A DNA stretch of 43,689 nt, from assembly GCA_005116885.1 (NCBI GenBank), contig SWDP01000006.1, forward strand, positions 51,377 through 95,065, in the 5' to 3' direction. The notes beneath the pieces are model-generated. The model had not been told where the DNA came from. It made no database searches and saw nothing but the letters and a program-made list of their open reading frames with translations. This document shows, piece after piece, positions 18,307 to 31,858 of this stretch. A program made the translations under genes and the position numbers. Source of the stretch: Nitrospira sp. Its GTDB lineage: Bacteria > Nitrospirota > Nitrospiria > Nitrospirales > Nitrospiraceae. How positions within the stretch are numbered: the first letter of the stretch is position 1; every line of letters begins with the position of its first letter.

Positions 18307-18411
18307 ACAAATCGAGGGATTATGTCGAACGGAGCAGTTTCTTCAATCGCTCAGATAGACTCGATGGTATTCGGGCTATCAGAGATTAATCGTAAACGAT
18401 GGCGGCTATGT

Positions 18412-19161
18412 ATGTTGCAGTGCGCTACTGATGATAGCGGGAGCGATAATCAGGGTGACAGCCGTGTATTTGTTTTGGCTGGATACGTGTCAGATGAAGA
18501 TCGGTGGAAGGAGTTTTCTAAAGAGTGGTCAACTGCTCTTAATGGTGAGAATCGATCACTAGCGTATTTCAAAATGGTTGAGGCTAATTCACAAAGAGAA
18601 CAGTTCTATGGCTGGCCCGATTCCGAACGTGATTCAAAGCTCGTTGAGCTTGATAAGATAGTTCAAAAATATGCTCTGTTTGACATAAGAGCCGTCTTGC
18701 GGTGGAAGGATTATGAGGAAGTGCAAAGCAAGTACCAGCAATATCCTGTATCACCCTACGAACTACTGTTCAATCGGGTGATGATCGACGCAATCATTGG
18801 CGTGAAAAACTACGGAATCAATGACGTTATTGATTTTTATTTTGATGACCAGAATGAAGTAGGGGATGCCGCACTCAAGGAATTCCGTCGTCAACAATCG
18901 ACATTACCGCCGAGTCTATTGCGATATGTTGCCGGACCACCAAATTTTAAAGACGAAAAGAAGGTGTTGCCATTACAAGCCGCCGACCTGCTTGCATGGC
19001 AGGTGCGCCGTGCGATTTATGAAGAGGAATACCCCGATCGACGTAAGCCACGCCAAAGTATGCAGTGTCTGGAAATCGTCCCGTCACGTCAATGCAATCT
19101 TGATAAGCAATGGTTGGAGGATTTCTACGAATCTATTAGACTGTGGATGAGTGAGGCTTAG
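18412..19161 (+). CDS. DUF3800 domain protein, transposon cargo
   Basis: The protein matches DUF3800: an N-terminal acidic-Ser-Gly motif (TDDSGSDNQG) followed by RVFVLAGYV, a middle strand with adjacent acids (VIDFYFDDQNE) and the C-terminal LPLQAADLLAWQVRR. The conserved acids suggest an RNase H-like, possibly metal-dependent nuclease; the family has no proven general function. ATG 18412 puts the DDSG motif about 7 residues from the start, as in relatives; ATG 18322 is in frame with GAGGG upstream and would add 30 residues. Base composition is visibly more AT-rich than the flanking chromosome. It diverges from the three small cargo genes. Confidence 0.85.
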   Translation: MLQCATDDSGSDNQGDSRVFVLAGYVSDEDRWKEFSKEWSTALNGENRSLAYFKMVEANSQREQFYGWPDSERDSKLVELDKIVQKYALFDIRAVLRWKDYEEVQSKYQQYPVSPYELLFNRVMIDAIIGVKNYGINDVIDFYFDDQNEVGDAALKEFRRQQSTLPPSLLRYVAGPPNFKDEKKVLPLQAADLLAWQVRRAIYEEEYPDRRKPRQSMQCLEIVPSRQCNLDKQWLEDFYESIRLWMSEA

Positions 19162-19217
19162 GGCCCCGCTTTCGTTTTCCTCTCCCCTGCCGTCTGTAAT
19201 CATCAGGCTTCCCACCC

Positions 19218-20153
19218 TTAGATCTTCGTTTGTCCGATCAGGTCTTTATACTCCACGCGCTTCCCTTGGATCGAGGAAAGCGCCGATATAAAGCGACCCT
19301 GATCGTTGCTCTTGCGGGTATTGAACCGGAATGATTGCTCATCGAGATAGCGGAACAAGTGGAACGGTTCGACGCTCACATAGGTGCCCTTGATTCCACG
19401 CTTCAATAAGCTCCAGACGTTCTCAATACCGTTGGTGTGGACGTTTCCTCTCACATATTCCTGAGCATGGTTGATGACGTGATGAGCATACTCTTGGCCG
19501 ACGCGAGTATAGGAAGCCAGTTGGTCAGTGTAGAGGGTCGATCCTGGCTCAACATTGGCCCTGATTTCACGAGCGAGTACCTTGGCTGACGCGACGTTCA
19601 GCACCTTGGTTCGCACCTCTCCATCTCGCTCTAACATGCCCATGACCACGGCCTTTCGGAAGTAGCCTTCTGCCTTCAACGCCTTTTGTTTTTTGTCCTT
19701 ATGCATATTCCTCGCTTTTCCACCGATATAAGTTTCATCCGCTTCCACTTCGCCAGTCAGTTTTCTGTCGAGTGATCCATTCTGCAACACGAGGCGGATC
19801 CGATGCATCATGAACCACGCAGTTTTCTGAGTGACGCCGAGGCTCCGATGAATTTCATACGAACTGATGCCATTCTTGGCGTTGACCATCATCCACATGG
19901 CACACATCCACTTATCGAGCTTGATGGCGCTATCCTCGAAAATAGTGCCCACCTTCACACTGTATTGCTTCTGACAGCTCTTGCAGGCCCATATAGAACG
20001 GGTCTTGATGAAGCGATGTTCTAAAGATTGACAGCGCGGACAGACCGGACCTTGCGGCCAGCGTAGCGCAATGACGAAATCAAAGGTCCGTTGCGGATCA
20101 GAGAAATACTTGATAGCTTCCTGAAGAGTGGTCGGTAACTTGTGCTCGCTCAT
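19218..20153 (-). CDS. IS1595-family transposase
   Basis: The 311-residue protein has an N-terminal zinc ribbon (CPRC at about residues 35-38 and CKSC about 20 further on), a helix-turn-helix-like region (SSYEIHRSLGVTQKTAWFMMHRIR) and an ISXO2-type DDE domain. The catalytic candidates are the Asp in GEVEADETYIGGK, the Asp in LYTDQLASY and the Glu/Asn in HTNGIENVWSLLKRGIKG. The frame is intact, so the element may be active. ATG 20153 is about 45 bases from the right terminal repeat, where the transposase promoter must lie. Confidence 0.95.
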   Translation of the reverse strand: MSEHKLPTTLQEAIKYFSDPQRTFDFVIALRWPQGPVCPRCQSLEHRFIKTRSIWACKSCQKQYSVKVGTIFEDSAIKLDKWMCAMWMMVNAKNGISSYEIHRSLGVTQKTAWFMMHRIRLVLQNGSLDRKLTGEVEADETYIGGKARNMHKDKKQKALKAEGYFRKAVVMGMLERDGEVRTKVLNVASAKVLAREIRANVEPGSTLYTDQLASYTRVGQEYAHHVINHAQEYVRGNVHTNGIENVWSLLKRGIKGTYVSVEPFHLFRYLDEQSFRFNTRKSNDQGRFISALSSIQGKRVEYKDLIGQTKI

Positions 20154-20196: not shown

Positions 20197-20218
20197 GTGA
20201 GTCAAGTATATTAATGCC
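20197..20218 (-). repeat. Right terminal inverted repeat of the IS1595-type element
   Basis: Exact reverse complement of 17569-17590. It is followed directly by the second copy of CCTGCTAT. Confidence 0.95.
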
Positions 20219-20226
20219 CCTGCTAT
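20219..20226. repeat. Target-site duplication, right copy (CCTGCTAT)
   Basis: Identical to 17561-17568. It ends 3 bases before the -35 box of the ilvB promoter. Confidence 0.92.
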
Positions 20227-20229
20227 CTA

Positions 20230-20259
20230 TTGACGCGTAGAAACACGTGGTGATAGGAT
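20230..20259 (+). promoter_or_regulatory. ilvB promoter, extended -10
   Basis: TTGACG at 20230-20235 and TAGGAT at 20254-20259 are separated by 18 bases, with TG at 20251-20252 giving an extended -10. The predicted start is near 20266, leaving a leader of about 140 bases before ilvB. The transposon's right end is only 11 bases upstream of the -35. Confidence 0.6.
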
Positions 20260-20287
20260 CAGCTATATTTATCCCTGATTTTTCAGA

Positions 20288-20413
20288 ATGTTCCGATCAG
20301 TCGTGGCTGTCGTGCCCCGTCTAAGTGTTGACGAGCTGCCGAGAATCCTATTTTTCGTGCTGACTCCTCTGTCTAGTGCCTCACTAGCGGTAAGGAGGGA
20401 GGTTCTGTCATGA
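20288..20413 (+). CDS. Candidate Val/Leu-rich leader peptide of the ilv operon
   Basis: An open frame of 41 codons starts at ATG 20288 and ends in TGA at 20411-20413, overlapping the ilvB ATG at 20410 (ATGA). Eight Val, seven Leu and one Ile make up about 39% of the peptide, including VVAVV near its start, and three of the Leu codons are CTA, which looks rare in neighbouring genes. A hairpin (CTAGTG-CCT-CACTAG, 20373-20387) lies within it. The ribosome site is weak. A role in attenuation or translational coupling by branched-chain amino acid supply is inferred; a chance frame of this length remains possible. Confidence 0.35.
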   Translation: MFRSVVAVVPRLSVDELPRILFFVLTPLSSASLAVRREVLS

Positions 20414-22185
20414 AGCTCACAGGTGCTGAAATCCTGATCGAATGTCTCAAACGGGAAGGCGTCAAGACAATTTTTGCGCTTCCTGGTGGTGTCGTTCTGA
20501 AGATTTTCGACATGCTTCATCAGCAGAAAGACATTGAAGTGGTGCTGACACGCCATGAGCAGGGTGCGGGCCATATGGCGGAAGGCTATGCCAAGGCGAC
20601 CGGAAAAGCCGGAGTCTGTCTTGTGACTTCCGGGCCGGGTATGACGAACGTGATTACAGCGTTAGCGGATGCGTACATGGACTCCGTGCCGTTGGTGTGT
20701 TTTAGCGGGCAAGTTCCCACCAGCCTGATTGGAAATGATGCGTTCCAGGAAGCGGACAACATGGGATTGAGTCGACCCTGCACTAAATATAACTTCCTGG
20801 TGAAAGATGTGAAGGATCTGGCGGTCACGATCAAAGAAGCATTCTACATTGCGACGACGGGGCGTCCAGGCCCGGTGCTGGTGGATATTCCGAAAGACGT
20901 ATCCATGGATAAGGCGGAATTTGTCTATCCGAGTTCCATCGCTATCCGGAGCTACAATCCAGTGTATGAAGGGAATAAGTGGCAGATCAAGCAAGCGGCC
21001 GAGGCCATGACGAAGGCCAGGAAACCGGTGTTGTATGTCGGCGGCGGTGTCATCTTCTCTGGTGCGTCGCAAGAGTTGATGGAGTTGGCTGAACTGACCC
21101 ATATGCCGGTCGACATGACGTTGATGGGGCTTGGGGCGTTCCCTGGCGAGCATCCCCAATCCATGGGCATGCTGGGCATGCACGGCACCTATTGGGCGAA
21201 TATGGTCATGCATTATTCCGATCTTGTCGTGGCCATCGGAGCACGGTTTGACGATCGTGTGACCGGAAAGGTGTCAGAGTTTTGCCCGCATGCCAAGGTG
21301 ATTCATATCGATATCGATCCGACTTCGATTCGCAAAAATGTCAATGTCGACATTCCAATCGTGGGCGATTGCAAGATGGTGCTCCGTGAGTTGATTCAAA
21401 TTCTTCGTGCCACGGTGAACGGCGATCAACGGGAGTTGCGCAAGCCCTGGTGGGATCAGATCCGCGAATGGCAACAGGCGAACCCGCTTGCGTATCAACA
21501 AGAAGCGGATGGGCCGATCAAGCCGCAGCATGTTATTCAGCGACTGTATGAACTCACGAAGGATCGGGATCCGATTGTATCGACCGATGTCGGGCAACAC
21601 CAGATGTGGGCTGCCCAATATTTTAAGTTGGCGAAGCCAAATCGCTGGTTAACCTCGGGGGGGCTTGGGACCATGGGGTTCGGTTTCCCTGCTGCGATGG
21701 GGGCACAGGCGGCGTTCCCGGGCCGGCTGGTTCTCTGCATTGCCGGAGACGGCAGTATCCAAATGAATATGCAAGAAATGGCAACAGCGGTGGTGCATAA
21801 GTTGCCGGTCAAGATCATTATTCTGAATAACCGATTCCATGGGATGGTCCGGCAGTGGCAGGATCTCTTCTATGAAGGTCGGTATGCCTCGAGCGATTTG
21901 GAGACGACGCCGGACTTTGTCAAGTTGGCAGAGGCGTATGGAGCAGTCGGGCTCAGGGCCAGCAAGCCGTCTGAGATTGATGCCGTTCTCAAGGAAGCGA
22001 TCGCAGTGAACAAGCCGGTTATCGTCGATGTGCCGACGTATCGATATGAAAACGTGTATCCGATGATTCCCGCTGGCGGCTGCAACCATGAAATGATTTT
22101 GGAAGATCCGCCGGCCTTGAGAAATAAGCAGTCTGGAGCGGGGCAGGTGGCTCCGAAGGATTCGGACACGATCCTCACGGCCTAA
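20410..22185 (+). CDS. ilvB: Acetolactate synthase large subunit
   Basis: IlvB is the catalytic subunit of acetohydroxyacid synthase, the first shared step of valine, leucine and isoleucine synthesis. The 591-residue protein begins [27 protein letters not shown], has the catalytic Glu in the [15 protein letters not shown] segment, and the thiamine-diphosphate motif [29 protein letters not shown]. It is full length, with N-terminal TPP-PYR, central FAD-binding and C-terminal TPP-PP domains. AAGGAGG precedes ATG 20410. It is followed after 28 bases by the regulatory subunit ilvN and then ilvC. Confidence 0.97.
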
Positions 22186-22213
22186 TCATCGGTGTCGGGA
22201 GTACAAATTGGGT

Positions 22214-22732
22214 ATGGAACATATTATCTCGGTGACAGTCGAGAATAAGTTTGGTTCTCTGTCTCGCATCGCTGGCTTGTTCAGCGGACGCGGATTCAAC
22301 ATCGAAAGCCTCTCAGTCGCGCCAACGCTTGATCCGTCTATGTCGCAGATGACTATTGTGACATCCGGTGACGAACGGATCATCGAGCAGATTGTGAAAC
22401 AGCTCAATAAACTCATCGATGTCATTAAGGTCGTGGATTTGAACGAGAGCGATTTTGTCTCGCGGGAGACGGCGCTCATCAAGGTGCATACGCGGCCAGA
22501 GGACCGGGCGGAAGCGTTGAGAATCGCTGATATTTTTCGCGCGAATGTGATCGATTCTACGCCGGCGACGTACACGATTGAAGTGACCGGGGACCCGCGA
22601 AAGATCGGAGCCATCATCAACTTGCTGCAGCCGCTGGGGATTAAAGAACTCACACGTACCGGACGGGTTGCGGTTGCCCGTGAGTTGATTCGGTCGACGG
22701 ATGTGCCGGCGAAAAAGATTGCCCGTGAATAG
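22214..22732 (+). CDS. ilvN: Acetolactate synthase small (regulatory) subunit
   Basis: IlvN binds IlvB and confers feedback inhibition by valine. The protein of about 172 residues has the N-terminal ACT domain ([33 protein letters not shown]) and the C-terminal ALS_ss_C domain with RADIFRANV-like [27 protein letters not shown] 22214 matches the usual M-x-HxISV start; TTG 22208 is in frame and better spaced from GGGAG at 22197-22201, so the true start could be two codons earlier. The gene lies between ilvB and ilvC in the same operon. Confidence 0.96.
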
Positions 22733-22769
22733 GCGTGACCTCGGACTCAATGCCCAATCGGTTTCTTGA

Positions 22770-23810
<1,041 letters not shown>

Positions 23811-23936
23811 CAGGAGGTTGAAGCCGACTTCCTCCGTCGATTCAATCGTATTAGCCGAGTTTCAGCGTGGCTAGGCTGGGCCGATGAGAATGATCGTCGG
23901 GTCGGACATCCTTCCTGAATAACCTGAGGCGACTCT

Positions 23937-24587
23937 GTGGCGGATCGTGCCGTCGGTATCCCGTTTGCCAAAGAGGGAATTCCCTTCATCGGGGCGGCTG
24001 TCGGCGTTACACTGCTGGCAGGATGGTTGGGCTGGATCATTGCGACGGTCGGAGCAGCGATCCTGACGCTCTTTGTCTCGTGGTTCTTTCGCAATCCATC
24101 CCGTGTGATTCCCCAGGGGCCACGTCTCGTTCTCGCCTCGGGCGACGGGAAAGTGATCGCTATTGAAGAGGAGTTCGAGTCCCGCTTCATCAAGGATCGT
24201 AGCATCAGGGTTAGCATCTTCTTGAACGTCTTCGATGTGCATATCAATCGGATTCCCTGTGAAGGGATTATTGAGGATGTGCAGTACCAACCAGGGTTGT
24301 TTCTGGTCGCGAGTAAGCCGGATGCGACGTTGAGAAATGAGCAAAATGCGCTCATGATTCGGACCGTAGAGGGTGCGAAAGTATTGTGTGTGCAGGTCGC
24401 CGGGTTGATTGCCAGACGGATCGTCTGTTGGGTGTCGCCAAAAGATCGGGCAGTGCTGGGTGAACGGTTCGGTTTGATTCGATTTGGCTCGAGGATGGAT
24501 ACGTTTCTTCCTCTCGGGACGTCTATAAAGGTTGCGGTCGGCGATCGAGTGAAAGGTGGGGAAACCATCTTGGGAGAACTCCCATGA
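23937..24587 (+). CDS. psd: Phosphatidylserine decarboxylase (short form)
   Basis: The enzyme makes phosphatidylethanolamine from phosphatidylserine. The 216-residue proenzyme has an N-terminal membrane segment (about residues 18-45), the FVSWFFRNPSRVIP and LASGDGKVIAIEE blocks, SIFLNVFDVHINRIP with the conserved His, and RFGSRMD near residue 185. The Gly-Ser in that motif is the self-cleavage site that yields the pyruvoyl group. The GTG start at 23937 follows GAGG about 10 bases upstream. The stop overlaps the pssA start (ATGA). Confidence 0.92.
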   Translation: MADRAVGIPFAKEGIPFIGAAVGVTLLAGWLGWIIATVGAAILTLFVSWFFRNPSRVIPQGPRLVLASGDGKVIAIEEEFESRFIKDRSIRVSIFLNVFDVHINRIPCEGIIEDVQYQPGLFLVASKPDATLRNEQNALMIRTVEGAKVLCVQVAGLIARRIVCWVSPKDRAVLGERFGLIRFGSRMDTFLPLGTSIKVAVGDRVKGGETILGELP

Positions 24588-25390
24588 AGACTGCCGGACT
24601 TCGCCAATCATTTGGAAGAGATGGGAAGCGGCGCAAAGCCGCCATGCATTTGATTCCCAATCTTTTCACGACGGGGAATCTGTTGTGCGGCGTGTTTTCA
24701 ATGCTGTCCGTGTTTAATGCGGACTACATGATTGCAGCAGTCGCCATTCTGGTGGCGATGATCTTCGATATACTTGATGGAAAATCTGCACGGTTGACGA
24801 ACAGCACCAGCCATTTTGGTTTTGAGTACGACTCGTTGTCCGATGTGGTGTCGTTCGGGGTCGCACCAGGCCTCTTGATTTATTCCTGGGCGCTGAGCGG
24901 GCAGGGTATGTTCGGTATGGCGGTGATGTTTGCGTATGTCGCGATGGGCGCGGTCCGGTTGGCCCGGTTTAATTCGACAACCTCTGTGCCGGACGGCAAG
25001 TACTTTACCGGGTTGGCGATTCCTGCAGCAGCTGGGGTAGTGGCGTCGCTCGTGATTTTTGATCACTATAGCCTCAGGATGGGGACGGAAGTGAAGCCAT
25101 TCCTTGTGTTGATTATTACGCTGACCTTGTCGTTCTTGATGGTGAGTACCCTCAAGTATCGAAGCTTTAAAGACATGAAGTTCCGTGGCGGTCGGCACAT
25201 TACCTATCTGGTGTGGGGCATTTTGACGCTCATGCTCTTAGCAGCCTGGCCCCAGGTAATGTTATTTGTTCTCTTTGCAGGGTACGCTCTCCTTGGACCG
25301 GCAGAACGGCTTGTCGGACTTTTTTCCAAAGTGGCTGGGAAGCGTCCATTGCCCAAGACCGAACAGCCAGTGAACGAATCGAAGGTGTAA
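24584..25390 (+). CDS. pssA: CDP-diacylglycerol-serine O-phosphatidyltransferase
   Basis: PssA condenses CDP-diacylglycerol with serine; its product is the substrate of the overlapping psd gene. The 268-residue integral membrane protein has the CDP-alcohol phosphotransferase signature DG(x2)AR(x8)G(x3)D(x3)D in DGKSARL...GFEYDSLSDVVSF, and about eight hydrophobic segments. Its start shares ATGA with psd. The T-box leader of leuA begins 2 bases after its stop, so the leuA transcript could come from read-through as well as from a promoter inside pssA. Confidence 0.94.
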   Translation: MKTAGLRQSFGRDGKRRKAAMHLIPNLFTTGNLLCGVFSMLSVFNADYMIAAVAILVAMIFDILDGKSARLTNSTSHFGFEYDSLSDVVSFGVAPGLLIYSWALSGQGMFGMAVMFAYVAMGAVRLARFNSTTSVPDGKYFTGLAIPAAAGVVASLVIFDHYSLRMGTEVKPFLVLIITLTLSFLMVSTLKYRSFKDMKFRGGRHITYLVWGILTLMLLAAWPQVMLFVLFAGYALLGPAERLVGLFSKVAGKRPLPKTEQPVNESKV

Positions 25391-25392
25391 TT

Positions 25393-25650
25393 GGCTACGA
25401 CGAGGAGTAGTACGCGATTTGCACAGCAGTAGAGAGCTGGTGAATGGTGCAAACCAGCCTGTGTGGCGCCGAACTCGCCTCTGAGCCAGAATCCATGAAA
25501 CCCGAGTAATGGATTCCGTCTCGCCCCCGTGACAGGGTGTAATGAAGCGCCGTGGATAGCGTATGTTGTCCAAGGCTAAATCAGGGTGGTACCACGGAGC
25601 TTCTTGAGCCTCCGTCCCTGGGCGTAGGGATGGAGGCTTTTGTGTTTTTT
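25393..25650 (+). promoter_or_regulatory. T-box leader, leucine-specific, with terminator
   Basis: A complete T-box riboswitch is visible. Stem I runs from GGCT at 25393 to AGCC at 25487, with the AGAGAG bulge and an apical hairpin (GCTGG...GGTGCAAACCAGC). The specifier loop reads GAACTC at 25471-25476, where CTC (25474-25476) is a leucine codon. The conserved T-box AGGGTGGTACCACGG is at 25583-25597. A 12-bp terminator hairpin (25608-25619 with 25626-25637) is followed by a T-rich run to 25650. Uncharged leucine tRNA would bind and prevent termination, raising leuA expression when leucine is short. Confidence 0.93.
25608..25650 (+). terminator. Rho-independent terminator of the leuA T-box
   Basis: GCCTCCGTCCCT at 25608-25619 pairs with AGGGATGGAGGC at 25626-25637 (12 pairs, one G-U) around a 6-base loop, followed by TTTTGTGTTTTTT. 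It is the expression platform of the preceding T-box. Confidence 0.92.
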
Positions 25651-25773
25651 AGATTGCTGAAAATGTCTTCCCGCGGCGTTCTTGGTCGCGTGCCTCCCTG
25701 CGACGTACCCTGCGGGTACGACTCGGTCGTCTCGCTCCCTGCGGCCTTGCGGGGAAGTCATTTTGAGCAATCT
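25651..25773 (+). repeat. Foldback intergenic repeat, copy R5 (divergent, matched arms)
   Basis: The left arm reads AGATTGCTGAAAATGTCTTCC and the right arm, on the other strand, AGATTGCTCAAAATGACTTC. It differs from R1 at several arm positions, but in the same way in both arms. The central hairpin is GTACCC-TGC-GGGTAC. It begins at the base after the T-box terminator T-run and ends about 7 bases before the leuA ribosome site. Confidence 0.8.
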
Positions 25774-25796
25774 CACAAGAGGAGAGAGGTGAAACC

Positions 25797-26858
25797 ATGA
25801 CCCGCATGATTAGAGTTTTTGATACGACGCTCCGGGACGGCGAGCAATCGCCGGGGGCTAGCATGAATGTGGAAGAGAAAATCATGGTGGCGAAGCAACT
25901 CGCGCGGTTAGGGGTCGATATCATTGAGGCAGGGTTTGCGTATAGCTCGCCTGGGGATTTTGAAGCGGTGCGGCGGATTGCTCAGGAAGTCGAGGGCCCG
26001 ACGATTTGCAGCTTGGCGCGGGCTCGTCCGGAGGATATCGATCGAGCCTGGGAGGCATTGAAGGGGGCTCCGAAGGTCCGCATTCATACGTTTCTCTCGA
26101 CCTCGGATATCCATTTGAAGCATCAGTTTAGAATGACGCGTGATGAAGCAAAGAAACGCGCGGTCGAGATGGTGCAACGTGCGCGGGGCTATGTGGAGGA
26201 TGTGGAGTTTTCGCCCATGGATGCCAGTCGTTCCGATCCGGCGTATCTCTATGAAGTGATTGAGGCGGTGATTGCCGCCGGAGCTGGGACGATCAACATT
26301 CCCGACACGGTCGGCTACGCGGTGCCGCAAGAGTTTGGCCGGCTCATTCGGGGCATTCGTGAGCAGGTGCCGAACAGTGCACAAGCGGTGATCTCTGTCC
26401 ACTGCCATAATGATCTTGGCTTGGCTGTGGGGAATAGTTTGGCGGCGGTGTTTGAAGGAGCAGGCCAAGTCGAATGCACCATCAACGGCATAGGCGAGCG
26501 TGCGGGGAACACAGCATTAGAAGAAATTGTCATGGGGCTTCGGACCAGGAAGGATTTCTATCAAGCCGACACGAGGATTCGCACCGAAGAGATTTCGAAG
26601 ACCAGCCGATTGGTCAGCAAGATCACCGGCATGGTGGTGCAGCCGAATAAAGCGATCGTCGGGGCGAACGCCTTCGCCCATACGTCCGGCATTCACCAAG
26701 ATGGGCTGCTGAAGGACAAGACGACCTATGAAATCATGCGGCCGGAGACCTTGGGTATAGTATGGCGCATGGGATCTTGGCTCCCGGCGCTCGGTCGAAA
26801 AGGCACCGGCTCACGTCCTCAGAGGTCTACTACATTATTGCAGGTCGTGGGCAATTGA
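25797..26858 (+). CDS. leuA: 2-isopropylmalate synthase, 3' truncated by a deletion junction
   Basis: LeuA condenses acetyl-CoA with 2-oxoisovalerate, the first step of leucine synthesis. Residues 1-320 are authentic: [18 protein letters not shown] at the start of the HMGL-like barrel, [15 protein letters not shown] with the metal-binding His pair, NGIGERAGN, and [12 protein letters not shown] of the first linker subdomain. After PETLG near 26756 homology stops; 33 unrelated codons lead to TGA at 26856. Full-length enzymes have about 510 residues, so the second linker and the leucine-binding regulatory domain are missing. The downstream bases encode the end of a cupin in another frame. GAGGAGAGAGG precedes ATG 25797. 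Activity of the product is doubtful. Confidence 0.9.
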
Positions 26859-27016
26859 CCGTCGATGATGCTGCCGTCGCGCTGGAAGCTGGTTCCGTCG
26901 TCTATGTGCCCCCTGGAGGCACACAGTCTTTGGAAAATGTTGGGCCTACTGACATCGAGTTCCTGTGTCTGGTCGATCCTGCTTGGCGGCCGGAGGATGA
27001 AGAAGTGTTGGAATAG
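26753..27016 (+). pseudogene. Cupin domain protein, 5' deleted remnant
   Basis: In the frame shifted relative to leuA, the bases from about 26753 encode [20 protein letters not shown], then [36 protein letters not shown] and FLCLVDPAWRPEDEEVLE. This is the second half of a small cupin: the SEVYYIxxGxG and PPGxxHxxxN-type motifs are seen, with Gln in place of the usual His in GGTQSLENVG. The N-terminal third and start codon are missing. ATG 26762 is internal to the original gene. The remnant ends 41 bases before leuB. Confidence 0.8.
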
Positions 27017-27057
27017 AAGTTGGTGCGATCAATACTCACAATAGGGGAGAGTAGCCT

Positions 27058-28131
27058 GTGAAAGCGAAGATAGCCGTATTGGCTGGTGATGGAGTGGGTC
27101 GAGAGATCGTTCCTGAAGCGGTAAAGGTGTTGAAGGCTGTAGCCGAGAAGTTCGGCCATACATTCGAATTTCTCCCCGGTGATGTTGGTGGGCAGGCCAT
27201 CGACAAAGTGGGTGTTCCACTTCCTCAAGAAACGCTGACCTTGGCGAAACAGAGCCACGCGGTCTTGCTCGGTGCGGTCGGTGGTCCGAAGTGGGAGGGG
27301 TTAGAGTATAGCTTGCGTCCAGAGCGTGCGCTGCTGGGTTTGCGAGAGCACCTCGGGCTCTATGCGAATTTACGCCCGGCGAAGCTCTATCCGATGTTGG
27401 CCGATGCCTCCACGTTGAAACGTGACGTGATTGAGGGGATCGACATCCTCGTCGTTCGTGAACTGACCGGCGGTATTTATTTCGGGAAGCCCAAGGGGAT
27501 CGAGAAGTTGCCGAACGGAAGCGAGCGAGGCGTCAACACCGAGGTTTATACGACTGAGGAAATCCAACGTATCGCAAAAGTGGCATTCGAGGCGGCGAGA
27601 AAACGACGGAAAAAAGTGATGTCTGTTGACAAAGCGAACGTGCTGGAGTCATCCGAGCTGTGGCGTCGTGTGGTCACGGACGTTCACAAACACTATCCGG
27701 ATATAGAGTTAAGTCATATCTATGTTGATAATGCGGCGATGCAACTCGTGCGTAATCCAAGGCAGTTCGACGTGATGCTCTGCAACAATATCTTTGGCGA
27801 CATTCTGAGCGACGAAGCCGCGATGTTGACTGGGTCCATCGGCATGTTGCCGTCGGCCAGTATCGGCGCGCAGGTCGGATTGTTCGAGCCGATTCATGGC
27901 AGCGCGCCGGACATTGCCGGAAAGAATGTGGCGAATCCTATTGCGACGATTGCTTCGGCGGCGATGATGCTGTCCTATGGGTTCAAGTTGGATGCGGAAG
28001 CGGAAGCCATCGGGCAGGCGATTGTGAAAACGCTCGATCTCGGTTATCGCACGAAAGACATTCACAGTCTTGGTACTCGCCTGGTCAGCACAACGGAAAT
28101 GGGCGAGGCCATCCTGCGCAATCTGAACTGA
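27058..28131 (+). CDS. leuB: 3-isopropylmalate dehydrogenase
   Basis: LeuB oxidatively decarboxylates 3-isopropylmalate, using NAD. The 357-residue protein has the full isocitrate/isopropylmalate dehydrogenase pattern: [22 protein letters not shown], the substrate Arg-rich [47 protein letters not shown] and [26 protein letters not shown] with the metal-binding Asp residues, and the adenine-site [15 protein letters not shown]. The GTG start at 27058 follows GGGGAG. It probably remains cotranscribed from the leuA T-box despite the deletion upstream. Confidence 0.97.
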
Positions 28132-28149
28132 GAGAGATTTTCGATAGAG

Positions 28150-29355
28150 ATGAAGACTGATCTCACAGCCGGATTGATCCGGACCATTGTCGGTACCGGA
28201 ATCTCAGGCTGGTCAGGTGATGGAACGGTCGCCTCCGCGGCTTGTCTGAATGAGCCGAAGAGTGTGACCCTCGATGCAGAGGGAAATCTCTTCATCGCTG
28301 ATTCGGAGAACCACGTCGTTCGAAAGATTGATCGGAAGACCCTCTGTATCACGACCGTTGCAGGCAGGGTTCAGGCGTTTGACGCAGGGGCGACACCCGT
28401 TCTGCCGGTTTCGAGGTCTGAAGATGTCGATGAGGATCCTCTTGCGGAAATCAGTAAGGTCGACTTGCGCACTGTGACCCAACAGACCGACTTGAGTGGG
28501 ACGGTGCGATATATTGCGGTCAGTGCCGCGCCGGCTATGCACTTCAGTGGTGATGGTGGACCCGCTGATCACGCTCTATTGAATTTTCCAACGGCAGTGG
28601 TGGTCGATCGAGCGGGGCATCTCTATATTGCGGACACCCTGAACCATCGGGTACGGCGCGTGGACGCGGTGACAAGGGCGATTACGACAGTGGCCGGCCT
28701 GGGCAAGCCTCGGTACTCTGGCGATGGAGGATTGGCTGAGGAGGCCGGGTTGAACGAACCGGCTGCCTTAGCGTTGAGCGACGACGGGATTCTCTACATT
28801 GCTGATCAGAGTAACAATCGTGTACGGGCGGTAGATTTGGCCTCGGGAATGATTCGGACGGTCGCAGGGACAGGCACAGCAGCGTATAATGGAGACGGTC
28901 TGACTGCGACAGAGACCGATCTGGCCGGCCCCAGCGGATTGGCGTTGGCATCGGATGGTACGCTGTACATTGCTGATTGTTTCAACCGAAGGATTTGCGC
29001 TGTCGATCCTGTCACTGGTCTGATACGAACTGTGGTAGGGGACGGCGGAGAGTATCGATATCAAGGGTTGGATGAACCGCCCAGCGCCAGTGTCTCTCGG
29101 CCAGCGGGGATTGCATTAGATGAGGCGGGAAATCTCTACATGACCGATTCTGACAATCACCTGGTGCGGCGGTGGGATCGATTGTCAGGGCGTATTGAAC
29201 GCATCGCCGGCGTGGGTGTGTCTGACTATAGTGGCGATGGGGGTGTAGCGCTCGAAGCCGGTTTGAGCTACCCATTTGGAATCGTGTTAGATCGCGCAGG
29301 GCATATGTTCGTGGCCGATACGTTCAATCATCGCATTCGGGAGATCATATTGTAG
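28150..29355 (+). CDS. NHL-repeat six-bladed beta-propeller protein
   Basis: The 401-residue protein consists almost wholly of six NHL repeats with the pattern SGDGG-(A)-LxxPxxVxxDxxGxLYIADxxNHRVRxVD-xxGxIxTVAG. The N-terminal strand GLIRTIVGTG supplies the last strand of the sixth blade, closing the ring. There is no signal peptide or membrane segment, unlike many NHL proteins, so a cytoplasmic scaffold or binding role is likely; no enzyme motif is seen. An insert of about 50 residues separates blades 1 and 2. It sits 18 bases after leuB and 15 bases before asd, within the amino-acid gene run. Confidence 0.85.
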   Translation: MKTDLTAGLIRTIVGTGISGWSGDGTVASAACLNEPKSVTLDAEGNLFIADSENHVVRKIDRKTLCITTVAGRVQAFDAGATPVLPVSRSEDVDEDPLAEISKVDLRTVTQQTDLSGTVRYIAVSAAPAMHFSGDGGPADHALLNFPTAVVVDRAGHLYIADTLNHRVRRVDAVTRAITTVAGLGKPRYSGDGGLAEEAGLNEPAALALSDDGILYIADQSNNRVRAVDLASGMIRTVAGTGTAAYNGDGLTATETDLAGPSGLALASDGTLYIADCFNRRICAVDPVTGLIRTVVGDGGEYRYQGLDEPPSASVSRPAGIALDEAGNLYMTDSDNHLVRRWDRLSGRIERIAGVGVSDYSGDGGVALEAGLSYPFGIVLDRAGHMFVADTFNHRIREIIL

Positions 29356-29370
29356 GTAGGATCGAGGGTC

Positions 29371-30393
29371 ATGTTGAAAAAGAAATCAGGATACGTGGTG
29401 GCCATCCTCGGCGCAACGGGGGCGGTTGGGAAAGAAACTCTTGAGATTTTGGAGGAACGAAAGTTTCCGTTGGCCTCCCTACGTCTGTTTGCCTCAAAGC
29501 GTTCGGCTGGTGAGGTGATGTCGTGCCAAGGCAAAGAGTGGAAGGTCGAAGAACTGACGACGGAGTCGTTGTTTGCCGGTGTTGACTTCGCGTTTATTTC
29601 AGCGACGGACGCCATCAGCCGCGTGTACGGTCAACGGCTTGGAGCGGCCGGGGTTGTCGTCATCGATGACAGCGGCGTCTTTCGGATGGAGGCCGATGTT
29701 CCGTTGGTGGTACCGGAAGTCAACGCCCATGCGCTGACGGCGATGCCTCGCGGCATTGTGTCCATTCCCAATTGCACGACGACCCCGCTTGTTATGGCGC
29801 TCAAGCCGTTGCAGGATGCCGTAGGGGTGAAGCGGGTGGTCGTGACGACGTTTCAATCGGTCTCCGGGACCGGCGCCGCAGCGATGGATGAACTGATGAC
29901 GCAGACAAAAGATCTGATGTCTTTTCGTGACACGAAGGCCAAAGTATATCCCTATCAGATCGCCTTCAACTTGCTGCCGCATATCGGATCTTTCAACGAT
30001 GGAGGCGATTGTTCCGAGGAAGTGAAGATTGCCCGCGAGACGAGGAAAATTCTTGAAACGCCGGCGCTTCGCGTGACGGCGACGACGGTGCGTGTTCCGG
30101 TGTTGCGCTGCCATTCCGAAGCAATTAATGTGGAGTTGGGGCGGCCGCTTAAGCCGAATGAAGCCCGTGCGCTGTTGGCGGCTATGCCGGGGGTGATCGT
30201 GTACGATGATCCCGCCAAGAAGCTCTATCCCATGCCCTTGGATGCGACCGGCAAGGATGAGGTCTACATCGGCCGTGTGAGGGAAGACGAATCGATCACG
30301 AACGGCCTGAATCTCTGGGTGGTGTCCGATAATCTCCGCAAAGGGGCTGCGCTCAATGCGGTGCAAATCGCAGAATATGTCGTTCGAGGCTGA
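29371..30393 (+). CDS. asd: Aspartate-semialdehyde dehydrogenase
   Basis: Asd reduces aspartyl phosphate to the semialdehyde, the branch point to lysine, methionine, threonine and diaminopimelate. The 340-residue protein has the NADP loop VAILGATGAVGKETLEILEER, the nucleophile Cys135 in SIPNCTTTPLVMALKPL, VVTTFQSVSGTGAAAM, the substrate EVKIARETRKIL region and VRVPVLRCHSEAINVE with the catalytic His. Start ATG 29371 fits the family. Its stop overlaps the start of the DUF2905 gene by one base. Confidence 0.97.
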   Translation: MLKKKSGYVVAILGATGAVGKETLEILEERKFPLASLRLFASKRSAGEVMSCQGKEWKVEELTTESLFAGVDFAFISATDAISRVYGQRLGAAGVVVIDDSGVFRMEADVPLVVPEVNAHALTAMPRGIVSIPNCTTTPLVMALKPLQDAVGVKRVVVTTFQSVSGTGAAAMDELMTQTKDLMSFRDTKAKVYPYQIAFNLLPHIGSFNDGGDCSEEVKIARETRKILETPALRVTATTVRVPVLRCHSEAINVELGRPLKPNEARALLAAMPGVIVYDDPAKKLYPMPLDATGKDEVYIGRVREDESITNGLNLWVVSDNLRKGAALNAVQIAEYVVRG

Positions 30394-30647
30394 TGGCTGA
30401 ATGGGGAAATCTCGGAAAAGTATTTGTCGGGGTTGGATTGTGTGTAGTGTTGGTCGGCCTGTTGCTGCTGATCGCAGATCGAGTTCCTGGAATCGGGAAT
30501 CTCCTCGGATGGTTCGGAAAACTTCCCGGCGACATCTCCATTCGACGAGATAACTTCAGCTTTTCGTTTCCCATTGTCACCAGCCTGCTCCTCAGTGTCA
30601 TCCTGAGTCTGGTATTCTATCTGATTACATGGATCTTTCGCCGATGA
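30393..30647 (+). CDS. DUF2905 small membrane protein
   Basis: The 84-residue protein has two hydrophobic helices (about residues 9-28 and 58-81) separated by the conserved GNLLGWFGKLPGDISIRRDNFSFSFPIVTSLLLS loop typical of DUF2905. It should be an inner-membrane protein of unknown function. The start overlaps the asd stop (TGATG-type junction) and its end overlaps the SpoIID-like gene. Confidence 0.87.
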   Translation: MAEWGNLGKVFVGVGLCVVLVGLLLLIADRVPGIGNLLGWFGKLPGDISIRRDNFSFSFPIVTSLLLSVILSLVFYLITWIFRR

Positions 30648-31858
30648 GCCAGTTGAGGAGCAGCGTGTATCGCGCCATTGCGGTAGGGGCCTGTCTTCTC
30701 AGCCTGTCTTCTGGAGCCGAGGCGGCAGAATCGATCCGGGTGCTGCTGTCTGCCGATGTGCTACGGCTCGATATCCGTTCAAGCAATCTGCTGTGGGCGA
30801 CCGACGCAAAAGGCCGTCGTCAGGCCTTGCGCACGCCGGCTCAGATCATCGCTGCCGGCAAGGGGTTTTTATTGAACGGTGTTCGCAGGCAGGCGGAGCA
30901 GTTGACATTGCATGGCGGAGGGCAAGGGCTCACACTGACCTTCCCGCGACCCACTCGGAAGTCCAAAGGGGCGGCGGTGTTATCGGGCGACTCCGGCACA
31001 GAGGTCTCGGTGAGCGGCCTCATTCATCTCGTGCGAAAAGATAAGGGGTTTCTGGTTATTAACCAAGTCGATATGGAAGAGTATGTCAAAGGTGTGGTTC
31101 CTGCCGAGGTCAGTTCAGCGTGGCATCCTGAGATGCTGAAAGCACAGGCGGTTGCAGCCAGAACCTATGCGCTCTATCAGCAGAAGTTGAGTGCCGCGCG
31201 GGAGTATGACGTGGCGGCGACCGTACAAGATCAAGTCTACCGCGGGAAGCAGGGGGTTGATGCTGCGATTCTACGAGCGGTTGAAGAGACGAGAGGGCTG
31301 GTTGTGACCTTCCAGGATGCGCCGATCTACGCAGCGTTCTCATCAACTGCAGCCGGATTGACGGAAGATGCGACGAATGTGTGGTCGAAAGAATATCCGT
31401 ATCTCAAGGGTGTGGAGTGTCCCTTCGACCTGATGTCGCCCTATTTTCAATGGAAGTCTTCCTTCAAAATCGACACCCTCGAGCAGAATTTGCGGGAGCA
31501 GGGCTTTCCTGTGGGTACGATTGCGACGATCACGCCGTTGTCGTTCAGCAGAGGAGGGCGAGTCGCCACGCTGCGTGTTCTCCACTCCGACGGTGAATTG
31601 GTTCTTCGCGGAGAAGAGTTGCGGAAATTGGTTGGCTACACCATCATCCCCAGCACGCAGTTTGCCATCGAGTCGATCGGCCAGGATGTGGTATTGTCCG
31701 GTTATGGTGCGGGCCATGCTGTTGGCATGTGCCAATGGGGCGCGAAAGAACTGGCTGAGTTGGGCTATCCTTTCTCGATGATTCTTCGATATTATTACCC
31801 AGGGACGGAATTGCAGAACATGACGTTGACGAAAGCTCCGACCCCGCCGTCTTCCTGA
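30644..31858 (+). CDS. SpoIID/LytB domain protein
   Basis: The 404-residue protein has a signal peptide (hydrophobic residues about 9-20, likely cleavage after AEA near 27) and a SpoIID/LytB domain in the second half: GFLVINQVDMEEYVKGVVPAEVSSAWHPEMLKAQAVAARTYAL, and the C-terminal GYGAGHAVGMCQWGAKELAELGYPFSMILRYYYPGTEL. In spore formers SpoIID is a peptidoglycan lytic transglycosylase; in this non-sporulating type of organism a cell-wall remodelling role is inferred. ATG 30644 overlaps the DUF2905 stop; ATG 30629 is in frame five codons earlier. Confidence 0.88.
   Translation: MSQLRSSVYRAIAVGACLLSLSSGAEAAESIRVLLSADVLRLDIRSSNLLWATDAKGRRQALRTPAQIIAAGKGFLLNGVRRQAEQLTLHGGGQGLTLTFPRPTRKSKGAAVLSGDSGTEVSVSGLIHLVRKDKGFLVINQVDMEEYVKGVVPAEVSSAWHPEMLKAQAVAARTYALYQQKLSAAREYDVAATVQDQVYRGKQGVDAAILRAVEETRGLVVTFQDAPIYAAFSSTAAGLTEDATNVWSKEYPYLKGVECPFDLMSPYFQWKSSFKIDTLEQNLREQGFPVGTIATITPLSFSRGGRVATLRVLHSDGELVLRGEELRKLVGYTIIPSTQFAIESIGQDVVLSGYGAGHAVGMCQWGAKELAELGYPFSMILRYYYPGTELQNMTLTKAPTPPSS

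Follow-up and report, generated by a model that had tools for sequence, protein, structure and literature searches.

The window, that is, the whole stretch of 43,689 nucleotides analysed here, contains on its forward strand a series of genes leading from branched-chain amino acid to phospholipid and leucine synthesis. The genes ilvB, ilvN, ilvC and psd (20410-24587) make up the rest of the presumed transcript upstream of pssA (24584-25390, TIGR00473 above cut-off). Between pssA and a truncated leuA (25797-26858) lies a complete leucine T-box riboswitch (25393-25649, + strand), and leuB (27058-28131, TIGR00169 above cut-off) is found further downstream. A DUF3800 protein and an IS1595-family transposase are encoded just upstream of ilvB (18322-20153). 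The first-pass annotation of this DNA had proposed a leucine T-box before leuA in a diderm genome. This assignment is supported by the covariance model and by covariation, as well as by the specifier, the match to the discriminator base and the gene that follows. The named relatives sharing the locus are Nitrospira, which supports the diderm assignment.

Using Infernal with the Rfam model RF00230, a match was obtained at 25388-25622 on the + strand (90.9 bits, E 1.3e-20), complete over model positions 1-219. The identification holds although this score falls 2.1 bits short of Rfam's curated gathering score (93), which is the reason why the default Rfam scan of the whole window reported nothing but RNase P RNA and a tRNA. 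No second RF00230 match was found in the genome (G000; 3.19 Mb in 49 contigs, 84% complete).

All the parts previously named (apical loop, GAA-CTC specifier, T-box sequence and strong terminator) were located where they had been placed. Stem I (25393-25487), delineated by the RF00230 match, its pairs and their covariation, comprises a base helix, a kink-turn, a specifier internal loop and an apical AG-bulge/GGTG loop. As had been noted, it begins 2 bases past the pssA stop codon (25388-25390), its first pair being 25393:25487. The specifier loop aligns with CTC: GAA (25471-25473) is followed by the codon CTC (25474-25476), predicted to pair with tRNA-Leu(GAG) on the basis of codon conservation and the presence of this tRNA in the same genome. 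The apical module, composed of an AGAGAG bulge and a GGTG-containing loop (25431-25458, from the alignment), is expected to hold the tRNA elbow (PMC7583486). Stem I is followed by Stem II with a GAA/AGTA, S-turn-like internal loop (25489-25516; pairing and covariation), a candidate Stem IIA/B pseudoknot (25517-25537; pairing in the alignment) and Stem III (25549-25576; pairing and covariation). The antiterminator (25583-25619; pairs, covariation and folding) contains the T-box sequence AGGGTGGTACCACGG, which begins at 25583, and a TGGT bulge (25587-25590) complementary to the tRNA end ACCA. The element is completed by an intrinsic terminator hairpin (25608-25637; terminator scan, pairing and folding) whose T-rich tract reaches 25649. 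All these features are on the + strand.

For the window sequence a 53-pair structure was drawn up by hand, and its pairs were then counted in 43 leaders from the same family (hereafter f1, by inference the Nitrospiraceae), aligned with MAFFT. These leaders were drawn from 54 deduplicated ones, so that the count favors well-behaved leaders: 11 were omitted, six of them carrying a repeat inside Stem I (L121, L125, L127, L129, L130 and L131), in addition to L123, L126, L043, L044 and L045. Over the 53 pairs, 94.8% of cells are paired, compared with 84.8% in shuffles, and covariation amounts to 0.386 versus 0.189 in shuffles and 0.06-0.10 when the structure is slid along the alignment; none of 500 shuffles reached the observed value. 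Changes on both sides were found in 31 of the 53 pairs. Much of this signal is carried by Stem II (99.1% of cells paired, both sides changed in 7/8 pairs) and by the upper Stem I helix (94.8% of cells paired). Stem III is looser, with 84.4% of cells paired and changes on both sides in 8/8 pairs. In Stem IIA/B, the two-pair helix is invariant and the CCC/GGG helix (IIB) is the weakest of the structure (77% paired). Chance resemblance to a T-box is ruled out by the E value of the RF00230 match and by covariation above both shuffled and slid controls.

The antiterminator helix AGGG:CCCU, of four pairs, is invariant in all 43 leaders, and the terminator helix shows little variation (94% of cells paired). 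These two hairpins are mutually exclusive as they share positions 25608-25619, the 3' arm of the antiterminator being the 5' arm of the terminator. Folded alone, the antiterminator reaches -12.6 kcal/mol, while the terminator (25608-25645) folds to -26.1 kcal/mol (z -6.2); from these predicted energies, the terminator should win unless the antiterminator is assisted by the tRNA.

Across the phylum, the specifier is a leucine codon in all 94 leaders (CTC in 92, CTG in two) and the TGGT bulge is present in every one of them. A terminator folding to at least -20 kcal/mol was obtained in 93/94, the miss being G131, which lacks TTTT where the script looked. The genome under study encodes a tRNA-Leu(GAG) with the 3' end ACCA, fitting both CTC and TGGT. 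The two genomes with a CTG specifier, G165 and G238 (loci L013 and L017), hold tRNA-Leu(CAG) in addition to the GAG isoacceptor, hence the specifier change has a matching tRNA. A tRNA-Leu(CAG) is also present in G214, whose specifier is CTC.

On these grounds, it is very probable that a T-box sensing tRNA-Leu(GAG) attenuates transcription of leuA inside an ilvB-ilvN-ilvC-psd-pss-leuA transcript. We infer that read-through from upstream, tRNA binding and antitermination would proceed as follows. Polymerase coming from the upstream genes would transcribe the leader, after which Stem I would read the GAG anticodon with CTC and grip the tRNA elbow with its apical part. An uncharged tRNA would pair through its ACCA end with the UGGU bulge, stabilizing the antiterminator and allowing leuA to be transcribed. 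With leucine-charged tRNA, the antiterminator would not be stabilized and the much stronger terminator would form, stopping transcription before leuA. The ilv and phospholipid genes would be unaffected by this termination.

Alternatively, the T-box could head its own transcript, with a promoter in the 3' end of pss and a unit made of leuA and the genes behind it. Such an arrangement exists in more distant families of the phylum: a sigma-70 site was found 43-48 nt before Stem I in 6/6 loci of family f8 (11/12 matches) and in 4/5 loci of family f14 (10/12 matches), of a TTGACA-17/18-CATAAT-like type. Applied to f1, the same test, which scores the sigma-70 consensus only as matches out of 12, gave a mean best site of 6.0/12 within the 120 nt preceding Stem I versus 6.4 in shuffles, with no site of at least 10/12 in any of the 79 genomes listed; a local sigma-70 promoter was thus rejected for this family. 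In the window itself the best site is 6/12, as in shuffles, and extending the search to 400-500 nt upstream returned no site of at least 10/12 in the 79 f1 genomes, 1.3 being expected. A transcript starting within pss is thus unlikely here, and the same switch occurs in the phylum both with its own promoter and, in f1, without a recognizable one. Absence of a recognizable promoter in f1 fits read-through from ilvB to pss. When 20200-31000 was scanned by rules for terminators, none that is strong appeared on the T-box strand before 25606, the weak terminator-like sites within pss not being comparable to that of the T-box. Among the 79 f1 genomes, the distance between the pss stop codon and Stem I is at most 15 nt in 46, 16-60 nt in 31 and more in two. 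The earlier suggestion of an internal attenuator is supported by this short gap (46/79) and by the lack of near-consensus promoters (0/79, versus 6/6 in f8 and 4/5 in f14), and the T-box is likely such an attenuator within a longer transcript.

The state of leuA, whose truncation the first-pass annotation had not anticipated, raises another question. Compared with G214, the closest relative by pss (99%), 763 bp are missing and the gene runs into the cupin gene preceding leuB (region 25797-27016), LeuA being cut at about residue 321 of 515 and covering only positions 4-323 of the 516-position LeuA profile. This deletion may be real or an assembly error, and the controlled gene is therefore possibly dead, or misassembled, in this genome. 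Elsewhere in the genome, the LeuA profile gave a single, weaker full-length match (C46, 249 bits), probably a citramalate synthase, although this assignment is a guess. A broken leuA, together with a score below the gathering cut-off, could point to a degenerate T-box that has lost its switching function. This is very improbable, since only two of the 53 T-box pairs are non-standard in the window (25413:25470, C-C, and 25552:25573, G-A), the T-box occurs in all f1 genomes listed, G214 has an intact 515-residue LeuA and the deletion is explicable by assembly error. As for an ordinary end-of-operon terminator for pss, with the rest of the element a chance likeness, the position of the terminator directly behind pss is compatible with it, but an E value of 1.3e-20, the covariation and the fixed specifier and TGGT make it next to inconceivable, provided that the alignment is sound.

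The palindromic repeat of about 115 nt located between the terminator and leuA (25655-25769, no strand assigned) is dispersed, occurring 40 times or more in this genome, and folds to -51.3 kcal/mol. Relatives have other variants of it in the corresponding position, downstream of the T-box terminator. In genus g2, the left half of Stem I contains about 100 nt of palindromic repeat in eight genomes (loci L121, L125, L127, L128, L129, L130, L132 and L134) and a shorter stretch in two (L131 and L133). In L038, about 1 kb of extra sequence separates the T-box from leuA, including a long ORF with a lipoprotein-like start within repeat sequence.

Among 295 genomes of the phylum, 94 contain an RF00230 match, exactly one each, and in 46 the match is above the gathering cut-off. 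A match was found in all 79 f1 genomes among those listed, which were ordered by kinship, with no match-less genome of the same genus or family among them. The place of the element is conserved: leuA follows in 93 of the 94 genomes (the exception, G003, being at a contig end) and pss precedes it in 91 (the exceptions being G022, G016 and G025). The psd-pss-T-box-leuA order was also found by a pattern scan in eight Geobacter-type loci among the 80 matches listed.

A LeuA tree was built with FastTree from 55 chosen sequences, including partial proteins; two f40 loci and some others, with too little leuA, were dropped. In this tree, two families without T-box, f2 (0.99) and f3 (1.00), nest inside the T-box-bearing Nitrospirota group (0.86), from which the absence of the T-box looks derived. 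Support for the inner branches is low (0.53 and lower), and the f14 LeuA sequences, which are from the same phylum, cluster with those of Geobacter (0.94), so that transfers between lineages may have occurred. Recent acquisition of the T-box and leuA from Firmicutes was rejected, as Nitrospirota and Geobacter-type LeuA sequences group together (0.92) against four Firmicutes sequences.

Variant T-boxes were found in other families of the phylum. In f8, a T-box is present in 6/7 genomes, and in the five loci in which Stem I was read (L048, L049, L360, L361 and L362), Stem I is short and lacks the AG-bulge/GGTG module, yet a terminator is present; L363 fell outside this reading as the motif missed it. 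These T-boxes devoid of the apical module also have their own TTGACA-CATAAT-like promoter. According to a review, transcriptional T-boxes cannot do without the module, while translational ones mostly lack it (PMC7583486), and with respect to this rule the f8 T-boxes are exceptions. The translational ileS T-boxes of Actinobacteria likewise have a Stem I without apical module, but they act on translation start (PMC7583486, PMC1262725), whereas those before leuA in f8 are equipped with intrinsic terminators. Unlike both types, the T-box of the window has a long Stem I. In f14, the leuA T-boxes of G031 and G003 (loci L050 and L100) seem, by eye, to lack Stem II.

The sister family f2 has no RF00230 match in the 18 genomes listed, and a leuA match at E 1e-100 or better is found in 43 of its 48 genomes. 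A hidden weak T-box in f2 or f3 was rejected, as Rfam searches of 11 loci gave nothing down to E 0.1. Family f2 kept psd-pss-leuA and the terminator, the sensor apparently being replaced by a short, mostly leucine-rich ORF in the gap between pss and leuA (L276-L278, L280-L282, L342-L348, L274, L275, L329, L331 and L336). In f2 genera g13, g14, g15, g16 and g143, the 5' arm of the terminator is GCCTTCGTCCC or GCCTTCACCTC, shown by alignment to be a repeat of, or similar to, that of the f1 T-box. The f2 terminator pattern has exactly one match in 8/12 genomes, each just before leuA, and none in 4/12; a backward control gave no match. A generic terminator type was therefore rejected as the source of this likeness. 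No such terminator was found in genus g17, whose pss-leuA gap is about 60 nt, or in the gaps of L338, L339 and L340; L337 and L279 have the terminator and no convincing leucine ORF. In f3, a like terminator is present at L267 and L270 and at none of the other loci inspected.

The ORFs of g13 and g14 are mostly 31 codons long, start mostly 4-6 nt past the pss stop codon behind AAGGA, and in most cases contain a run of three leucine codons, while those of g16 have 28-30 codons and start 0-1 nt past this stop. Between the ORF stop and the T run lie 46-48 nt in six of the seven ORFs measured in g13/g14 (55 nt in L351) and 60-64 nt in 5/5 g16 ORFs. Up to 10 of 31 residues are leucine, with lower values in L351 (2/28), L337 (0/15), L345 and L346 (four each), counts that for a single ORF are mostly weak evidence. 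In-frame pN/pS is 0.62 compared with 0.79 and 1.20 in the other frames, and pN is lower than pS in 54 of 55 pairs among 11 of the 15 ORFs, L277, L280, L345 and L346 being omitted for length changes or divergence. Before the terminator lies an AGGU...ACCU helix, mutually exclusive with it; over 18 distinct sequences, 97.2% of cells are paired in this helix and 100% in the terminator, and both sides changed in two of the four pairs of the AGGU...ACCU helix. Judged from its sequence, this helix can be read as the T-box antiterminator minus the bulge. It may be, with about even odds for and against, that in f2 a T-box ancestral to the phylum lost Stems I-III and the bulge for the tRNA end and became a leader-peptide attenuator in which leucine codons are read by the ribosome, with the same terminator. 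A short ORF may also be conserved for other reasons. The proposed exchange of sensor is the part of the analysis that a specialist would not expect.

The ilv-leu T-box of Bacillus subtilis works by transcription attenuation, and the leu leader of enterobacteria is a leucine leader-peptide attenuator. As predicted for the T-box described here, the former senses tRNA-Leu and controls leucine synthesis; it serves a single ilvBNC-leuABCD operon (PMC12452182), whereas in Nitrospira the element lies behind ilvBNC-psd-pss and before leuA. As the first-pass annotation had stated, leuA T-boxes occur outside Firmicutes: leucine T-boxes directly before leuA, likewise in diderms, are known in Geobacter sulfurreducens and Pelobacter carbinolicus (Wels et al., 2008; PMC2494555). 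These belong to another phylum, and the table of that study names no Nitrospirae genome (PMC2494555). No description of a Nitrospirota T-box was found in the open-access papers searched, the entry lists of Rfam and TBDB being outside this search. Regarding f2, the LEU element of Actinobacteria is a further leucine leader-peptide attenuator (PMC1262725). What f2 has in common with such attenuators is a short ORF containing leucine codons, followed by alternative hairpins and by a terminator ahead of leuA; the difference is that the f2 terminator arm is that of the T-box of a neighboring family.

Collectively, these data add an entire family of nitrifying bacteria (Nitrospira) to the known range of the leucine T-box, which is single-copy there in all genomes listed. 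By its position inside the operon, the attenuator would throttle the leucine branch while leaving the valine/isoleucine and phospholipid genes untouched. The phylum offers a natural series at one locus, with or without own promoter, with or without apical module, with CTC or CTG as specifier, and with the sensor lost but the terminator kept, so that the replacement of one attenuation mechanism by another is testable there. If the proposal for f2 is true, a tRNA-sensing riboswitch would have been turned, in place, into a leader-peptide attenuator.
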